Virus record (IMG/VR): IMGVR_UViG_3300020173_000030
Span: 1-33,371 of that record
Length of the DNA: 33,371 bases
From: a virus
Reading direction: 5' to 3' (one strand)
Below the pieces are notes generated by a model. The model saw only the letters and a list, made by a program, of their open reading frames with translations, did no database searches and was not told the DNA's origin. Below, one piece after another: positions 1-33,371 of the stretch. Both the position numbers and the translations under genes were made by a program. Each line of letters opens with the position of its first letter. Within the stretch, counting starts at the first letter, position 1.

Positions 1-432
1 GAATTAGAGACCCAATTACAGATGAGTGCGTATGCCCAGCTGATAAGCCCAACTTCAATGAAGTTACTGAACAGTGTGAGGGTGTAGGGAAAGGTGATTG
101 CACAGGCGGAAGAATTAGAGACCCAATTACAGATGAGTGCGTATGCCCAGCTGATAAGCCCAACTTCAATGAAGTTACTGAACAGTGTGAGGGTGTAGGG
201 AAAGGTGATTGCACAGGCGGAAGAATTAGAGACCCAATAACCCAAGATTGCGTTTGTACTGGCACTACTCCTAATTGGAACGAAGCTAAACAACAATGTG
301 AGGGTGTAGGTAGCGGTGGGCAAGGTAACTGTACGGGGGGAAAAACTAGAGACCCAATTACAGATGAGTGCGTATGCCCAGCTGATAAGCCCAACTTCAA
401 TGAAGTTACTCAACAATGCGTAGGCACAGGAA
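1..432 (+). repeat. Tandem coding repeat, 111-120 bp units
   Basis: Units begin at 1, 112, 223 and 343. Units 1 and 2 are identical over all 111 bases. Unit 3 is 120 bases and diverged (CTGTTPNW in place of CPADKPNF). Unit 4 returns to the sequence of units 1 and 2 before its end diverges. The array continues off the left edge, so the copy number is unknown. Perfect identity of neighbours points to recent duplication or gene conversion, or to a collapsed or duplicated assembly at the contig end. Confidence 0.95.
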
Positions 433-671
433 GCATTGAAGAAACTGTTGTTCCAGACTTATTTAATGTAGTAAGAACTAAACCCGGAGAAAAAGTAGGT
501 GCGCTTGATTTTTATGACATAGGCGGAACTAGCATTTTTCGATCCGGTGCTAAGACAGAAGAAGAGGAAGACCCCCTTGCATACCTATATTCTAACTACG
601 CAGATGGTGGTATAGTGCAGGACTATGATATTGAAGAACTTATTAGGTTCTTAGAGAGCCAACGAGGTTAA
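1..671 (+). CDS. Cysteine-rich tandem-repeat late protein (5' end missing)
   Basis: The reading frame (codons starting at base 3) is open from the window edge to a TAA at 669-671, so only the last 223 residues or so are seen. The first 145 residues are four repeats of 37-40 residues, each with a CVC-type pair followed by two more cysteines and ending in a CTGG-like turn. After the repeats come about 80 residues without cysteine, including an acidic run (KTEEEEDP) and the end DGGIVQDYDIEELIRFLESQ. The next gene starts one base after the stop. Regular four-cysteine repeats suggest small disulfide- or metal-stabilised modules on the virion surface, such as a fibre or tail decoration. This is inference; I do not recognise the family. 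Confidence 0.8.
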   Translation, partial: IRDPITDECVCPADKPNFNEVTEQCEGVGKGDCTGGRIRDPITDECVCPADKPNFNEVTEQCEGVGKGDCTGGRIRDPITQDCVCTGTTPNWNEAKQQCEGVGSGGQGNCTGGKTRDPITDECVCPADKPNFNEVTQQCVGTGSIEETVVPDLFNVVRTKPGEKVGALDFYDIGGTSIFRSGAKTEEEEDPLAYLYSNYADGGIVQDYDIEELIRFLESQRG

Positions 672-4718: not shown

Positions 4719-7700
4719 ATGCCTGTACTGCAAATGCCAGATGGTAAACTTATACGCTTTCCTGATGATATGCCTCGCGCTGAAATAAAAGCTAGGATTG
4801 CGGCTGCTTACCCCGGTGCGTATGCACCAGAGGTTGAGAAAAAACCCGGTCTCATGGACCTTTTTTCAGAGGGCTACGAGCGTGGAGATGTGGGTATTAG
4901 TGCGGCGTATAGAGATGTATTACCTGCTGTTGTTATGTCCGCTCTTGGGGACGAAGAGTACGCAAAAGAAAAGTTAGCTATTGCAGAAGCCAAACGCCAA
5001 GAAGAAGCTATGCGTAACCCTGCTGTGTACGGCGGTATGGAAGATATACAAGGTCCCGGTGACATCTTGCCTTTTATGGCAGAAAAAACAGGTGAGACTG
5101 CGCCAATAATCAGAAACATTGCGGCGGCTACTGTAGGTGGTAAGTTGCTTAGGGCAGGTCAACTTGGTAACCGTTTACTCCAAGGTGCGGCTGTAACGCC
5201 TGTTTTAACTAGTGAAGCGTTTGAAGGTATTTTTGCAGACACAGGAGAACTAGCCCCCGGTGTTGCTTACGGAGCGGGCATAGTTAATACCGCACTTGAA
5301 ACAATAGCGCCTCTTAGGTTTCTTAGGAGCTTTAGCCCCAGCCTACAAAAAGCCGTTGTTAGAGAGGGGCTTAAAAAAGCTGGTGTTCCGCCCACAGTTA
5401 TTGGTCGAGCTATAACAGGTGGTGTTCGCGGTGCTATAACAGAAGGTTTAACAGAAGGCGCGCAGCAATCAATTAACATTGCCGCAGAAAACTTCGTAGG
5501 AAAGAACCCTCAAATTTTTGACTCTGAAGACTGGAGACGCGTAGCTGAATCAGTCGTTGCTGGTGCTGCGGTAGGTACTCCCCTTGGTACTGTTGGCGGC
5601 GCAGCCAGAGGTTCAGCTGAAGGTAGCCGAATACGAAGAGAAAACGCAGAGTTAGAGATTCGACAACAGCTAGAAGCACAAGCACAAGAAGCGGCTGCTG
5701 ATAAAGCTGCGAAAGAAGTTGCCGACAAAGCAGCCGCAGACAAAATTATTGCTGACCAAGCTGCTGCACTGAAAATACCTTCCGACCCTGAAGGGTTAAA
5801 AAAATGGGGGTTAACTAATTTAGGTATTGCACCCGGTGCACTAATATTGCGTCCTGATGGACCTTTGGCTGGCAAAGACCTTACTGATCCAGCACAAGCT
5901 GCGGAAGTAAAGGTAGCATTGCAGGATTATTTAAAGACCGCTACCAACCCCGAAATAATTAAGAAAGTAAAAGCGGTAATAAGAAATTTAGAGCCGGAAG
6001 GTTTGGTTTCGGAACCAAAAGTAAAAGACAAAGTAGTGGTTGATGAGGTTAAGGCTGAGGCTGATGCTGATGCTGATGCTGATGCTGATGCTGATGCTGA
6101 TGCTAAGGTTGAGGCCGGGGTTGAGGTTGTTGCTGGTACTGGTGTGCCTACGGGTTTTGCTACGCAAGAAACAGAAGCTCGAGCAAGAGAAGAAGCCCGA
6201 GCAAAAGAAGAAGCTAAAAAGAAAGCTGCCGAAGATATTAGGGAAGACATCCCACAAGATAAGCCCGTATGGTCTAAAGAACTGCTTGGGTTCCTTACTA
6301 ATGAATATGATGTGACTGAGCAAGAACTTGCTGGGTTAAATAGCGAACAAATGTTAGACCTGCTTGCAGATGCTGAGTCTGACGGCGCAGTGTTTGATGG
6401 TCCTATGGTAGAGGACACAGAAGCAGGTATAAAAGAACCAACTATCATCACTGATGAAACTGTAGAACAAGTTGTTGCCGAACCTGCTGAGGGTGCTGAG
6501 ACTGCTGAGCCGGTAACAGAAGTTGTTGAACCTGTAGCAAAAACGCAAGAAGACGATGGCATTGGTCAGTTAAAAGACCCAGAAAAAGCTTTACTAGTAT
6601 ATCAAGAGCTTGGGGTTAACGAGCAAGAAGGCTTTGACTTAACCGACGAAGATTTTGATGCCTTAGTGCGCGAAGCAGAAAGACAACGTAGCTTTAGAAA
6701 ACCTGTAGTCGGCGAATCCACCGCACCTGAAGCACGTGAACTTTCTGATGAAGAACTAAATGAGTTACTAGCAAACGCGCCTGATAGAGAAACATCTAAG
6801 GCACTACTAGCTCTAGCTGAAAACAGAGCTGCTGCACCAGAGGAAAAACCTTCAGTTAAAAAAGCTGCCGCTAAAGCCGCTGAAAAACCTGCCGCTAAAA
6901 AACCTGCCGCTAAAAAACCTGCCGCTAAAAAAGCTGACGATAAAGCCGCTGAAAAGTCTTCGGATAAAAAAACTGACGATACCCCTGAAAGCAGTAAAAA
7001 CGCAGCTCGCTTGGAGACGATTAGAAAAGCTGCCGCTCCTCGAGAACAAAAAGATATAGTAAGTACGCTAGCTAATAAGAAAGTTAGCGACAACGTAGTA
7101 TTCGATATAGAACAGCTTAAGAGGAAAGCAGGCCCTAAAAAAGCAGTAGCGGGTAAAAAGCTTACTCCTAGACAGATAGCTGTTAACTACTTCCACAAGT
7201 TTGGACCAGCCGAAGCTCTTGCGGTTTTAGTAGCAGAGGCTAACCCAGAGTACACAGAGCCAGAAACTTTTGCCCAGACTGAAAAGCGGGTGAATAAAAA
7301 AGCGGAATTTAAAACAGACCCGCAAAGAGCACTTGAGTGGGTGCAAAAAAATATGTCCGTTGCGGTGAATAACGCCGTAGACAGGAACATAAAGTTTGTA
7401 GAGGAAACCCTAGAAAATTTACCGATTAACAAGAAAAACGCGGAAGGTAGAAAGACAAGAGAAGACTCAAAGAAAAGCGCTACTAGTTTAAAAGTAGACT
7501 TGGCTGACACTACTAGAAAAATGAACACCGGTAAGGGTGCAAAAATAGATGCTAAAGATAAAAAAGGTCTACCTGATAGAGTAAAGATAAAAGCAAAAAC
7601 TCCCGAAGAAAAGGAAGAAGCCAAAAAAGAAGCCAAGAAAAAAGCAGACAAAGAGCGAAGAGACGACGAAGCGGAATCACTTGCAGCGAAGGATAAAGAC

Positions 7701-24851: not shown

Positions 24852-24870
24852 CTTGGGGAGGGGGGAAAGG

Positions 24871-24891
24871 ATGTTAGGTAACACCTAACAT
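24871..24891. repeat. Dispersed palindrome, copy 1
   Basis: ATGTTAGGT-AAC-ACCTAACAT: two perfect 9-bp arms around AAC. It covers the stop codon of the 273-residue gene and lies 20 bases from terminator T1 and 68 bases (centre) from the -35 of P2. The arms are shared by copies 2-4, but the centre differs by one base. Confidence 0.95.
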
Positions 24892-25706
24892 GTGGTGTTT
24901 CGGTTTACGCACAAGTAGCTCTCTACGGTTTCAGGCGAGCTAGCTAACTTAATCCCTACGTTGGGTATGAACTCTCTGTGTGAAGCTAACTTCAGCAGTC
25001 CTATCTGTGCTCTATACTCAGGGGGAACTTCTTCGACCCGTTCAACTTTAGCGGAGTCAAAATCTTTTGCAACGGAACGCGTAACCAAATACCCTGTTGG
25101 GGTTTTCAATATCACAGCGCATCCAAACGTGAGTAAATCAGAAGTTAGTTCAAAATATTCTACTGCTCTATCTTCAATGTCGTTTAGTTGCTCTTCTGAT
25201 AAAGCGAGCAGGGAGTAAAGTTCATATCGCTTCTCCCTGGCACTTGTTTGAAAGAATCTGTATAGATGTTCTTCCATAACGCAGCGCAAACTTTGTTCCG
25301 AACGGTCTTTAAGTCCTCTGAACACTCTATCCAATCTGCTAGAGTAAGTCTCCATTAACTCTTCGTCTGTGTTTGACTTAAAGTATTTTGCAAACATCTT
25401 TACTGCTTTGTTTAAGTCAGCGGTCTTAGCTCTCGCGTTGCGTTTGTCTACCATACGAGGAGACCATAGCTCCAAAACCATGCGGTTATATTGACCTATA
25501 AAATCTATCTCTACTCTGCCGACTTGATGCCCGTACACGTCAGTTACATCTACTCTCCTAGCACCCCACACTTCAAAGGTTAGCTTGGGGAAAGCGTGCG
25601 CTACACGATCTATAAAATTATAAAGTAGCTCGTGTGTCAGTTTGTCTGCGGCTGCAACGCCAAAGATTTTGTTTCTGTGCTCGTTGTAAGTAAATACGTT
25701 TTGCAT
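24885..25706 (-). CDS. Unknown protein, 273 aa, downstream partner of DUF3150
   Basis: ATG 25706 is behind AGGAGGCAGAC, which also overlaps the stop of the DUF3150-like gene. The N-terminal 90 residues look alpha-beta (WGARRVDVTDVYGHQVGRVE, then IDFIGQYNRMVLELWSPRM). The middle is helical and charged (residues 105-180), and the C-terminal part again alpha-beta (GYLVTRSVAKDFDSAKVE). No catalytic motif is seen. It probably acts with the DUF3150-like protein, since both lie between palindrome copies 1 and 2 and before a strong terminator. Confidence 0.82.
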   Translation of the reverse strand: MQNVFTYNEHRNKIFGVAAADKLTHELLYNFIDRVAHAFPKLTFEVWGARRVDVTDVYGHQVGRVEIDFIGQYNRMVLELWSPRMVDKRNARAKTADLNKAVKMFAKYFKSNTDEELMETYSSRLDRVFRGLKDRSEQSLRCVMEEHLYRFFQTSAREKRYELYSLLALSEEQLNDIEDRAVEYFELTSDLLTFGCAVILKTPTGYLVTRSVAKDFDSAKVERVEEVPPEYRAQIGLLKLASHREFIPNVGIKLASSPETVESYLCVNRNTTC

Positions 25707-25715
25707 GTCTGCCTC

Positions 25716-26567
25716 CTACCAATCGAATTGTTTAAGAATGGAATCAACCTTAGTCTTCATATCCTCACGAATAGCGGGTGATTCTTTTATCACATCAATG
25801 TCTGCGCCTGTTATTGTACGTTCTAACATAACCCTAGCTCGTTCCAATTCTGGATCGTTGGTTATGTTAAGATGTGTAAGAATGTCACACAGGTCTTTCG
25901 GGTTACTGACGAAGCTGTCGTAAAATCTCTTCTTCTTATCGTCGTCTGTCTCGGTCAGCTTCTCACTCATACCCAGTAACATCTTGTGCATTCTGTGCCA
26001 CGCAGCGTCCATCGCATGCTTAGTCTTCTCTTGGTTCTCTACTTCTAACGAAGCCCGCAGTTCTTCCATGTCCTCAGCAGGCAGGTCTAGGTACAAGTGT
26101 CCGCTGTCAGGTACAGTTTTTATGGTTAACTTCCAGTCATACTTACTGTAAATCTCGTCAACCGAGGGGTACTCGTCTGGGTTGTACATGGCTCCCAAAT
26201 AGTTAGCCGCCGTTTCCTTCAGCTCTTCGTAGTGGTCACAGATATAATCGCGGCGCCGACAAAACTCGTCACGCTTACCATTGAAGTCTGACTTGAACGG
26301 TAGCAACAGACTGGTAGTTAGAAGTCTATCCCCCATGTCGTCCCAAGGTAACGTGCGCTCGGCGTACTCGTTGCGAGCCTTGTTGGCGAACTTGTTTAAT
26401 TTGCTTACATGGGTAGAGCCAATCATAGTGTCCTTGATGTACTTGCCTGCTTTCTTGTCTGCACCAGTGGCAACGGAAACATTCTCGCTCTGGTGTTTGT
26501 CTACTTTCTTAGCTGTCCAAGTGGAAATACTAAGGCGTACTAATACTGCGTTTGATGAAATGCTCAT
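25716..26567 (-). CDS. DUF3150-like protein, 283 aa
   Basis: ATG 26567 follows AGGAGAAAAAGT. The start MSISSNAVLVRLSISTWTAKKV resembles the beginning of DUF3150 proteins (an L-x-I-S-x-W-x-A/G-x-K segment), and the following Lys-Asn-rich helical region fits. DUF3150 genes are known beside MoxR-type ATPases and CobT/VWA-like genes, as here. The protein is mostly helical, with a LPWDDMGDRLLTTSLLLPF region, and has no visible active site. I infer a structural or adaptor role in the MoxR-VWA module. The call depends on motif memory plus context. Confidence 0.72.
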   Translation of the reverse strand: MSISSNAVLVRLSISTWTAKKVDKHQSENVSVATGADKKAGKYIKDTMIGSTHVSKLNKFANKARNEYAERTLPWDDMGDRLLTTSLLLPFKSDFNGKRDEFCRRRDYICDHYEELKETAANYLGAMYNPDEYPSVDEIYSKYDWKLTIKTVPDSGHLYLDLPAEDMEELRASLEVENQEKTKHAMDAAWHRMHKMLLGMSEKLTETDDDKKKRFYDSFVSNPKDLCDILTHLNITNDPELERARVMLERTITGADIDVIKESPAIREDMKTKVDSILKQFDW

Positions 26568-26590: not shown

Positions 26591-26617
26591 AGGATGTTAG
26601 GTGACACCTAACATCCT
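26591..26617. repeat. Dispersed palindrome, copy 2 (27 bp, perfect)
   Basis: Two perfect 13-bp arms (AGGATGTTAGGTG and CACCTAACATCCT) flank a single central A. It fills the gap between the 81-residue gene and the DUF3150-like gene, so it lies in the mRNA leader of the latter, upstream of its ribosome binding site. There is no U run after it, which argues against a terminator. Confidence 0.97.
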
Positions 26618-29237: not shown

Positions 29238-29615
29238 TTAAGAAATTGATACATAAGCTCTGCGTTCAATGTTGAGGATGTGGTCACAATAACTACTGCA
29301 ATCGTAAACAATGTCCTCAGTATCCTCGCCAAACCGCACGAACTCGTAGTGGAACAGCGGCTCTCCTTCTGGGTCTGCCTCGTCTCTGAACATGGTCTCC
29401 CACTCAGAAAAGGCGCAGGTATACACATCAACATCCTCATACCCCTGATACCATTTGACGCTGTCCATCTCACACACCAGATACTTCAACCCTGTGTCCG
29501 CTTCACACACCTCGAACTGGTCGGGCAGGTTCTCGTCCACATACAGCTTGAGCAGAGCGAAGTCCTTATCGTTCTTCGGGTACATCACAACTGTTACATC
29601 ACTTCTATATCCCAT
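29238..29615 (-). CDS. MGYRSDV-family small protein, 125 aa
   Basis: ATG 29615 follows AGGTGAGTT, and the previous stop is within that sequence. The protein begins MGYRSDVTVVMYPKNDKDFA, a start shared with a small family of bacterial and phage proteins whose function I do not know. The remainder is acidic, with FGEDTEDIVYDCSSYCDHIL and a basic end. The beta-rich pattern suggests a compact fold. It lies immediately upstream of the MoxR gene and may belong to the same transcript. Confidence 0.82.
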   Translation of the reverse strand: MGYRSDVTVVMYPKNDKDFALLKLYVDENLPDQFEVCEADTGLKYLVCEMDSVKWYQGYEDVDVYTCAFSEWETMFRDEADPEGEPLFHYEFVRFGEDTEDIVYDCSSYCDHILNIERRAYVSIS

Positions 29616-31752: not shown

Positions 31753-32226
31753 TGACGTTTTACTCCAACAAGTTTTGTAACATTACATTGTTATAAAAGA
31801 AAGGCTTTGTTACGTTTTAAAATGGTTTTGTAACAATAAATGTAACAATGCAAAGTCGCGTATTTACTGGGCTGCGTTACGTTTTTTCCTATTATTGTTA
31901 TATTGTTATAAAAAATAATATATATATATAGACCCCTGCGTTTTCTGTAACAGTGCAGAGGGGTTTGTTTTGTTACGGGGTAAGAGGGATTCTCTCCCTT
32001 GCATACTACTTTTAAAACGTAACAATATAACAATAGAAGGAAACACAGTGTTATCAAATACTTACATTGTTTAACTAATGTTACATATTAGCTTTAGGCT
32101 TAAAAAAATGTAACATTACACTTTTGTGGGCTGTGTAGTAGTACTGCTACTACTATCATCTTTCCAAGATGATGAAGTTTTTGTAACAAAGCGCCGCGTG
32201 GCGAGCGCGATACAAAAACGAGAGCC
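31753..32226. other. AT-rich repeat-dense region, candidate replication origin
   Basis: No credible gene lies here. GTAACA or its complement TGTTAC occurs ten times (31777, 31808, 31830, 31842, 31947, 31971, 32019, 32079, 32110, 32183), plus a related GCGTTACG near 31874. Two 16-bp perfect inverted repeats are present: TTGTTACGTTTTAAAA (31807-31822 with 32010-32025) and TATTGTTATATTGTTA (31893-31908 with 32020-32035). Between them lies an A/T-only run near 31911-31930. Two more palindromes sit at 32135-32153 and 32155-32173. Iteron-like words plus an easily melted tract fit a replication origin or a multi-site operator; neither is proven. Confidence 0.6.
32135..32173. repeat. Two adjacent palindromes
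   Basis: GTAGTAG-TACTG-CTACTAC (32135-32153) is followed by ATCATCTT-TCC-AAGATGAT (32155-32173). Arms of 7 and 8 bp are perfect. They lie between the AT-rich repeat zone and terminator T3 and may be protein-binding sites or RNA hairpins. Confidence 0.85.
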
Positions 32227-32250
32227 AAAAAAAGCCGCCGTTAGGCGGTT
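32227..32250 (-). terminator. Terminator T3
   Basis: On the minus strand CCGCC-loop-GGCGG is followed by seven U (32233-32227). It lies behind T2 and palindrome copy 3 and would catch read-through from the 249-residue gene before the origin-like region. Confidence 0.75.
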
Positions 32251-32265
32251 GGGTAGGGCGGGGAA

Positions 32266-32282
32266 GTTAGGTGTCACCTAAC
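32266..32282. repeat. Dispersed palindrome, copy 3
   Basis: GTTAGGTGTCACCTAAC is a perfect 17-bp palindrome. With flanking bases, 32262-32285 is a perfect 24-bp inverted match to 33183-33206 (copy 4). It is placed between terminators T2 and T3, so it is unlikely to be in any abundant mRNA. Confidence 0.97.
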
Positions 32283-32290
32283 ATCGAAAC

Positions 32291-32315
32291 AAAAAAATCC
32301 CCGCCGAGGCGGGGA
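32291..32315 (-). terminator. Terminator T2
   Basis: On the minus strand the stem UCCCCGCC/GGCGGGGA (32315-32308 with 32305-32298) is followed by seven U (32297-32291). It begins 20 bases after the stop of the 249-residue gene. Confidence 0.9.
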
Positions 32316-32334
32316 CAATATTTTCAGGGGTTTT

Positions 32335-33084
32335 TTAGTCTACTTTGTTGCCATCTTCGTCTACCCAAGAGGTAGTGCATGGCATTGCGGCATTCAAGTG
32401 TTTGAGAATCCCGTTCACAGTCATGGCGCCTACGGTAGACTCGTGTACTTTAAGGAACTTCGCCATAGCCTTACGGAAATCCGTTACCTTCTTGATCTGC
32501 GCGGGCAGATTCTTTTCTAACATCATCCCATCGATTTTCTCTTTTAGCGCGTCCGTTTTAGCCTTCACTTCTTTTTTCGTTTCCTCGGCTTTCTCAAGTT
32601 GCGCCATGCGCTCGGCGGGCAGTTCCTTGCCTTGGGACTCGAGCACAGTTTTCTCGGCTTTGATTAGCGCGACCTCCTCGGCGAGAACCTTGCTCGCGTC
32701 TAGCAATTGCTTGCGAGATGCTTTCTGCTCGGCGATTGCAATTTCCTCGGCGGTTTTTGGTGCAGGCTCGGGATTCTCGGGCTTGAAGTAAGCGCGTTGG
32801 AAATCTTGCCACACGTTCACCCGATCTTTATTAATCTCCGCAATCATTGCAGCTAACTCTTCTGCCATAGCGAGAGACAAGCCCACCGCGTCCGCTGCTT
32901 TCTTTTTAGTTTCAGGTTTCGCGCTCGCTTGCATCGCTCGCAAACTCAACCCTGTCTTAGGTCTGAGAGCCTCGATTCCGAAATACTCCGCAGCCTTTTC
33001 GAATAGTTCCTTCCTGCCCTCGGCTGTCTTCTCATCCCATTTTCTAACATCTTCTGCATACTCTGTTGTATTGAATGTAGCCAT
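32335..33084 (-). CDS. Ala/Glu/Lys-rich coiled-coil protein, 249 aa, in its own cassette
   Basis: ATG 33084 has AGGAAATAGTACA before it and a strong promoter 50 bases upstream. Residues 1-100 are alpha-helical (WDEKTAEGRKELFEKAAEYF, then GLSLRAMQASAKPETKKKAA). Residues 105-205 form a long charged coiled coil. The C-terminal 45 residues (KFLKVHESTVGAMTVNGILK, then HLNAAMPCTTSWVDEDG) look like a small globular domain with one cysteine. No family recognised. Its own promoter, operator-like site and terminator, flanked by inverted palindromes, suggest an early or independently controlled gene, for example a nucleoid- or host-takeover protein. Confidence 0.85.
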   Translation of the reverse strand: MATFNTTEYAEDVRKWDEKTAEGRKELFEKAAEYFGIEALRPKTGLSLRAMQASAKPETKKKAADAVGLSLAMAEELAAMIAEINKDRVNVWQDFQRAYFKPENPEPAPKTAEEIAIAEQKASRKQLLDASKVLAEEVALIKAEKTVLESQGKELPAERMAQLEKAEETKKEVKAKTDALKEKIDGMMLEKNLPAQIKKVTDFRKAMAKFLKVHESTVGAMTVNGILKHLNAAMPCTTSWVDEDGNKVD

Positions 33085-33131
33085 TGTACTATTTCCTATT
33101 GATATTGAAGTTTAAGATTCGTCTTACACTT

Positions 33132-33152
33132 CCAGTATATCATACTTACTGG
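33132..33152. promoter_or_regulatory. Operator-like inverted repeat over P1
   Basis: CCAGTA-N9-TACTGG overlaps the -10 and the -10/-35 spacer of P1. The nested AGTAT-N3-ATACT adds symmetry. The position is where a repressor would block RNA polymerase; the 77-residue Cro-like protein is a candidate. Confidence 0.6.
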
Positions 33153-33162
33153 ACAATGTCAA
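33134..33162 (-). promoter_or_regulatory. Sigma70-like promoter P1, TTGACA-N17-TATACT
   Basis: On the minus strand a perfect -35 TTGACA (33162-33157) and -10 TATACT (33139-33134) are separated by exactly 17 bases. It is the best promoter in the window and drives the 249-residue gene. The -35 extends as TTGACATTGTC, as in P3. Confidence 0.88.
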
Positions 33163-33181
33163 ATCATAACCTAGCCTAAAT

Positions 33182-33206
33182 GGATGTTAGGTGACACCTA
33201 ACTTCC
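33182..33206. repeat. Dispersed palindrome, copy 4
   Basis: The core GTTAGGTGACACCTAAC (33186-33202) is perfect; the extended 25-bp symmetry has one mismatch. It lies 20 bases upstream of the -35 of P1, where an activator or repressor could sit. Confidence 0.97.
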
Positions 33207-33222
33207 TAAATCGCCTTGTATA

Positions 33223-33279
33223 CCCCGCTTTTCCCCTCTCCCCCGCCCCCCATTACCCCCACCTACCCCCCACCACCCA
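33223..33279 (-). other. G-rich tract, potential G-quadruplex on the minus strand
   Basis: The plus strand carries six or more runs of four to six C separated by one to seven bases, so the minus strand has G runs that satisfy a G-quadruplex pattern. The rest of the gap from 33163 to the window end shows a CAGTACTG palindrome near 33300 but no supported gene. Confidence 0.7.
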
Positions 33280-33371
33280 CTTCACACAGCAAGTACCAGT
33301 ACTGCTGTACGCATAATAACCCGCACAAACGATACTTCGCCCTGAGAACACCCCACCCCCTTCTTTAATAA

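Follow-up and report, generated by a model that had tools for sequence, protein, structure and literature searches.

A gene for a 249-aa protein (32335-33084, minus strand) lies between two copies of a short palindrome in the window, by which we mean the whole 33,371-nt stretch of phage DNA analyzed here, and between phages that are otherwise near-identical the protein and its palindromes switch class together. The finding comprises a four-copy palindrome family in the window, its co-occurrence with the protein family in other phages, the joint switching of protein and site class, and a conserved placement of the sites. On this evidence we consider it likely that the 249-aa protein is an autoregulated DNA-binding regulator with dispersed, "stoperator"-like operators and a specificity that changes in step with them, and the palindromes are most likely read by the product of the gene that they enclose.

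As a mechanism, we infer binding, dimerization, repression and roadblocking by the 249-aa protein: it would be a sequence-specific DNA binder, probably a dimer, that contacts the dispersed palindromes via its N-terminal domain. The two sites flanking its own gene suggest autoregulation and insulation from downstream genes, and at the remaining sites, in early-gene gaps and at operon ends, the bound protein may repress or roadblock transcription in the manner of a stoperator. Regulator and operators would be exchanged, or re-evolve, together. How a DNA-binding regulator can alter the sequence that it recognizes, given that numerous sites have to follow, is a long-standing question on which such a system bears: the genomes here are natural cases from before and after a change, their backbones are almost identical, and one relative retains traces of the old operators beside the new ones. 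Phage repeats of the dispersed palindromic type, reported elsewhere without a known partner, would also gain a candidate protein.

The proposed regulator locus and its dispersed palindromes

Two 24-nt arms (32262-32285 and 33183-33206), 897 nt apart and 100% complementary, enclose the regulator gene together with an upstream sigma70-like promoter (TTGACA-N17-TATACT, 33134-33162, minus strand) and a downstream intrinsic terminator (32291-32315, minus strand) predicted from a G+C-rich stem and the run of T residues behind it on that strand. A second intrinsic terminator, likewise predicted from sequence, lies beyond the palindrome at 32262 (32227-32249, minus strand). Each arm is itself palindromic (GATGTTAGGT-N3-ACCTAACATC), and the same repeat occurs twice more, 5.6 and 7.4 kb from the nearer arm, so that the apparent pair represents two members of a dispersed four-copy family, hereafter class B. 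All four copies fall in the minus-strand early block, three of them in intergenic gaps. One, operator-like, is upstream of the regulator promoter (33182-33207); another lies between the two terminators (32262-32287), a position after the regulator terminator that is also occupied in L006, L007, L015 and L032, four of the relatives described below. The third is upstream of a 283-aa gene (palindrome 26592-26617; gene 25716-26567, minus strand), and the fourth covers the stop codon of a 273-aa gene and precedes its terminator (24869-24894). In 200 dinucleotide shuffles of the window, the best family of palindromes with 7-nt arms never exceeded one copy, which rules out a chance origin. No tRNA or known RNA family was matched.

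The sequence-only reading had recognized the perfect repeats, the promoter, the gene and the terminator, all of which we confirm, and had interpreted them as a small mobile cassette or "moron", possibly invertible, bounded by terminal inverted repeats. A perfect inverted repeat around a single gene fits that idea, as does the replacement of the surrounding block (32128-33309) relative to L006, and to this extent the segment does act as a discrete unit. Mobility and delimitation by the repeats did not hold up, since the repeats are found far from the gene as well as at its ends. Neither presence/absence nor inversion was seen: the homologous gene keeps its place and orientation in all relatives covering the locus, even where it is flanked by a different palindrome. 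Pfam integrase and serine recombinase families (PF00589, PF00239) were not found in five metagenomic, possibly incomplete records. Taken together, the extra repeat copies, the co-located gene and the lack of a Pfam integrase or resolvase match in those records speak strongly against a mobile or invertible cassette, a reading to which we give practically no credence.

The 249-aa protein is predicted to combine an alpha-helical N-domain (residues ~1-104) with a long coiled-coil hairpin (~114-224, numbered on the model of the L015 homologue); AlphaFold models reached a pLDDT of 86 for that homologue and of 82.7 for the N-domain of the window protein. The family is unnamed in Pfam, PHROGs and NCBIfam, where the protein has no meaningful match, and none was found among PDB sequences. 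A tblastn search of 50,697 phage records returned no homologue in named phages, and neither regulator nor ATPase homologues were found in bacterial genomes. Fold searches gave coiled-coil look-alikes only for the full-length model and, for the N-domain, homeodomains as the top matches at Z scores of 3.6 and 3.3, below significance, with nothing higher. This lack of a confident structural match for the N-domain counts against the regulator model.

Several other features of the window and its relatives were noted. Beside the regulator, an AT-rich segment (31776-32120) with many GTAACA/TGTTAC repeats and a ATATATATAT run is kept in relatives and looks like a replication-origin candidate. Small ORFs lie between the regulator and the downstream palindrome in L006 (3106-3321, 71 aa) and L007 (1174-1482, 102 aa) and are absent in L015; a PHROG search of both gave no match. 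Four 111-nt tandem units at the start of the window (1-453), of which units one and two are identical, code for a cysteine-rich repeat (GKGDCTGGRIRDPITDECVCPADKPNFNEVTEQCEGV) of a probable structural protein, and because the record begins inside this array the contig may be cut at the repeat. A 2169-aa virion-like protein carries acidic (AEAD-type) and lysine/alanine-rich (AAKKP-type, histone H1-like) repeats at 6041-6136 and 6805-6981.

Two matched classes of putative regulator and site

Homologues of the regulator occupy the same genome place in five IMG/VR phages (L032, L006, L007, L015 and G004), giving a family of six with the window, all from metagenomic and possibly incomplete records. 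These fall into two classes. In class B, comprising the window and L032, the palindrome reads TGTTAGGT-N3-ACCTAACA; in class A, comprising L006, L007, G004 and, as a fourth homologue, L015, it reads AGTTTAGT-N4-ACTAAACT. The sites, nearly all intergenic, number four each in the window and L032, eight each in L006 and L007, and six in G004. L007 and the mutually identical 13,095-bp loci L005 and L006 were reached via the ATPase gene. The other routes support the regulator model, because the pairing of protein and site was recovered from either direction: G004 (54,869 bp) was found by the class A palindrome alone and a homologue was then seen 12 bp from one site, and L032 was found by protein profile alone and then proved to carry four class B palindromes. 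All IMG/VR contigs with at least two sites encode the homologue save L018, which belongs to the same lineage but is a fragment that stops short of the regulator locus. Palindrome-only scans of IMG/VR also gave many single-site matches, which are probably due to chance, the fetched single-site stretches having no homologue. We took the single match in L004, an unrelated phage contig, as chance too; in this contig, two similar stretches (640-670 and 940-956) contain inverted repeats of the GTTAGGTG type in corresponding positions, of which one has a long loop and the other is a near-perfect palindrome. The co-occurrence of site and protein partly owes to shared ancestry.

Window and L006 are nearly the same phage in their primase (99.6% identical), SNF2 helicase (99.6%), DNA polymerase (98.9%) and ATPase (96.7%), yet their regulators share 28% identity and every palindrome is of the opposite class, even within near-identical flanks. 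L007 repeats the pattern, with an ATPase and a DNA polymerase 90-92% identical to those of the window, the regulators of L006 and L007 being just 26-28% identical to the window regulator. L032, conversely, is more distant in its ATPase (77%) and VWA protein (74%), has a regulator 60-61% identical to that of the window, and shares its site class. Site class thus tracks the regulator and not the backbone. Phages can exploit host regulators, and the palindromes might on that ground be bound by a different regulator, of host or phage origin, as its operators, with the 249-aa protein incidental; near-identical backbones with differing site classes, a class that follows the 249-aa gene, and the recovery of protein-site pairs in both search directions make this very improbable.

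The switch can be located at individual positions. L006 and L007 carry a class A site at the position of the 26592 copy (L006:8592); there the window and L006 have nearly the same 5' flank, the palindrome differs, and identity returns in the next gene. At the regulator locus, the block 32128-33309, which contains the regulator and two palindromes, is without nucleotide match in L006 and is bordered by sequence 100% (33310-33371, 62 bp) and 92% (31808-32119) identical. Replaced as a unit, it behaves as an exchangeable allele module made up of a regulator with its own operators. Since regulator and operators have changed together, near-identical phages should ignore each other's regulator. Traces of an earlier state are seen in L032: at the end of the 273-aa gene, where the site in L006, L007 and L018 is of class A, it carries a class B site directly adjoined by ACTTTAGTTTAAACTTATCC, a decayed class A site (16/20 bases), and at another class A position it has a symmetric variant with an N4 spacer, AGTTTAGG-TTTT-CCTAAACT. 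Such decayed remnants suggest that the ancestors of L032 were class A. Before the ATPase gene, where L006, L007 and L032 have a palindrome, the window has a 126-aa gene (29238-29615) and lacks that site.

Within the protein, nine alignment columns are fixed within and differ between the classes. Three of these (49, 51 and 52; N/R, F/M and R/Q) cluster within four N-domain residues immediately ahead of helix 57-66, in a segment (49-53) that reads NAFRE/K in one class and RAMQA in the other, and are candidate specificity residues, only a lead given that four class A sequences are compared with two of class B.

Placement of the sites and the probable level of recognition

In all six phages the regulator gene is closely preceded by a site, which in L007 is a variant with a spacer one base longer, and in five of the six another site comes directly past the regulator-gene terminator. 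Class A phages carry the preceding site in the leader, ~40-45 bp past the -10 box, and class B phages carry it upstream of the promoter. Other sites precede the 78-aa gene, the ATPase gene, the VWA gene or the 283-aa gene, or the terminator of the 273-aa gene, and every site falls inside an early-gene region of ~8-9 kb. A second strong promoter (TTGACATTGT...) is present in class A phages and is likewise followed by a site ~40-45 bp past its -10 box; no match to this promoter was found in the window or in L032, and that site is also absent there. Unlike those of classical repressors, the sites do not overlap -35/-10 boxes, a further point against the regulator model.

Phage N15 has dispersed centromere sites bound by SopB. 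By analogy, the 249-aa protein might bind the palindromes as centromere-like, packaging or genome-organizing sites, and its predicted coiled coil with a separate N-domain would suit such a role. The sites nevertheless keep to the early block, where they go with promoters, terminators and gaps between genes, and no ParA-type ATPase (PF13614, AAA_31) was found in the five possibly incomplete records, making this alternative highly improbable.

The palindromes could instead act in the transcript, as leader or intercistronic hairpins that control how stable the RNA is or how it is processed or translated; the 249-aa protein would then be an RNA-binding partner or an unrelated neighbour. All sites tested are predicted to form RNA hairpins (-7.6 to -16.6 kcal/mol), and most sites are upstream of ribosome-binding sites. 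The best fit to RNA-level control is the class A regulator leader, whose order GGAG-palindrome-ATG, with GGAG before the palindrome and not between palindrome and ATG, could suit it; there is also precedent in the ESAS inverted repeats of cluster K mycobacteriophages, which are linked to start sites (PMC3203893). The spacers point the other way. In L006 they read TTTG, CAAA, TTTG, CAAA, CAAA, TTTG, TTTG and TTAA, seven of eight being CAAA or its reverse complement, and in the window GTC, GAC, GTC and GTT, three of four being GTC or GAC. Spacers conserved only up to reverse complement make a site alike from both strands, as double-stranded DNA recognition expects, and an RNA reader would face loops in both orientations (CAAA and UUUG). 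The sense strand of the class A regulator leaders of L007 and L015 moreover contains a C-A mismatch. Two placements join spacer orientation in favouring recognition as double-stranded DNA, namely the conserved site past the terminator of the regulator gene and, in class B, the site that precedes the promoter of this gene, and we regard RNA hairpins as a rather unlikely explanation. Separately from the palindromes, class A leaders (L006 2300-2330 and the equivalents in L007, L015 and G004) start with a conserved small hairpin, GCGG-GACTT-CCGC, which in G004 is GTGG-GACTT-CCAC, a compensatory change.

Wider occurrence and relation to known systems

The Planktothrix/Synechococcus phage MinM2 (L069) has the same MoxR-DUF3150-VWA module as the window lineage, and its region 12196-48573 contains 14 exact copies of GGTTCAG-N-CTGAACC as well as near copies, many of them ~22 nt upstream of start codons, with palindromes on both sides of the first early gene. 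Rhizobium phage RHph_TM3_14A (L070) carries ~39 copies of GTTACCT-N4-AGGTAAC (at most two mismatches) between 843 and 49441, in early and late regions and about half of them intragenic, with a palindrome on each side of an early gene similar in size to the regulator gene. An hhalign comparison of the first early genes of both phages with the 249-aa regulator detected no remote homology, and the link is thus anatomical only. No repeated palindrome family was found in the terminase-related phages HTVC027P and HTVC023P (Pelagibacter phages), 023Pt_psg01 and DSL-LC04 (~50 kb each).

A broader picture can be put forward tentatively, as possible and not as our expectation. Through dispersed palindromic operators, an undescribed regulator family may govern early genes across a broad group of phages that seemingly lack lysogeny genes. 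Its specificity would turn over wholesale, protein and every site together, between phages up to 99% identical otherwise, possibly as a means by which phages exclude one another or evade the regulator of a rival, and the modules of MinM2 and RHph_TM3_14A would be two further specificities.

Elements of the proposed regulator-operator system recall several known ones. Lambdoid CI repressors, such as those of lambda and 434, are homologous regulators with different operator specificities in otherwise similar circuits, and their operators cluster at two promoters. Homologous regulators with differing predicted specificity are found here too, unlike CI in that the sites spread over ~8 kb and the protein has no CI-family match. 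Cluster K mycobacteriophages have dispersed ESAS inverted repeats of variable spacer near gene starts, with a consensus that differs between subclusters as the same genes keep a site; the repeats are tied to a start-associated sequence and their binding protein has not been identified (PMC3203893). Our sites are dispersed inverted repeats as well and, unlike ESAS, are paired with a specific gene of matching class. In the T1-like phages Stevie and TLS, described as lytic, the passages that concern dispersed intergenic repeats liken them to stoperators, give their role as unknown and propose no partner protein; those repeats are direct, asymmetric and oriented (22 bp in Stevie) (PMC4319613; PMC11447400), whereas the sites here are palindromic and come with a candidate partner.

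By analogy, the system would work most like the repressor and stoperators of the cluster A mycobacteriophages L5 and Bxb1. Repressor sites in these phages are dispersed in short intergenic gaps, one of them by the repressor's own gene, and among heteroimmune phages of this type the site consensus differs along with the repressor; L5 stoperators are 13-bp, asymmetric, monomer-bound sites in 20-30 copies, oriented with transcription (PMC6550527; PMC9283540). One short site in many dispersed intergenic copies is common to both, at four to eight per phage here against the 20-30 of L5. No relationship of the 249-aa protein to the L5/TipsytheTRex repressor was seen: it matches no PDB chain in sequence, and its fold comparison gave weak results. 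The integrase, resolvase and ParA-type families searched in the five possibly incomplete records likewise yielded no lysogeny gene. Because L5 sites are asymmetric and oriented and those described here are symmetric, with spacers in either orientation, the system would be a variant of dispersed-operator systems and not a member of the L5 type.
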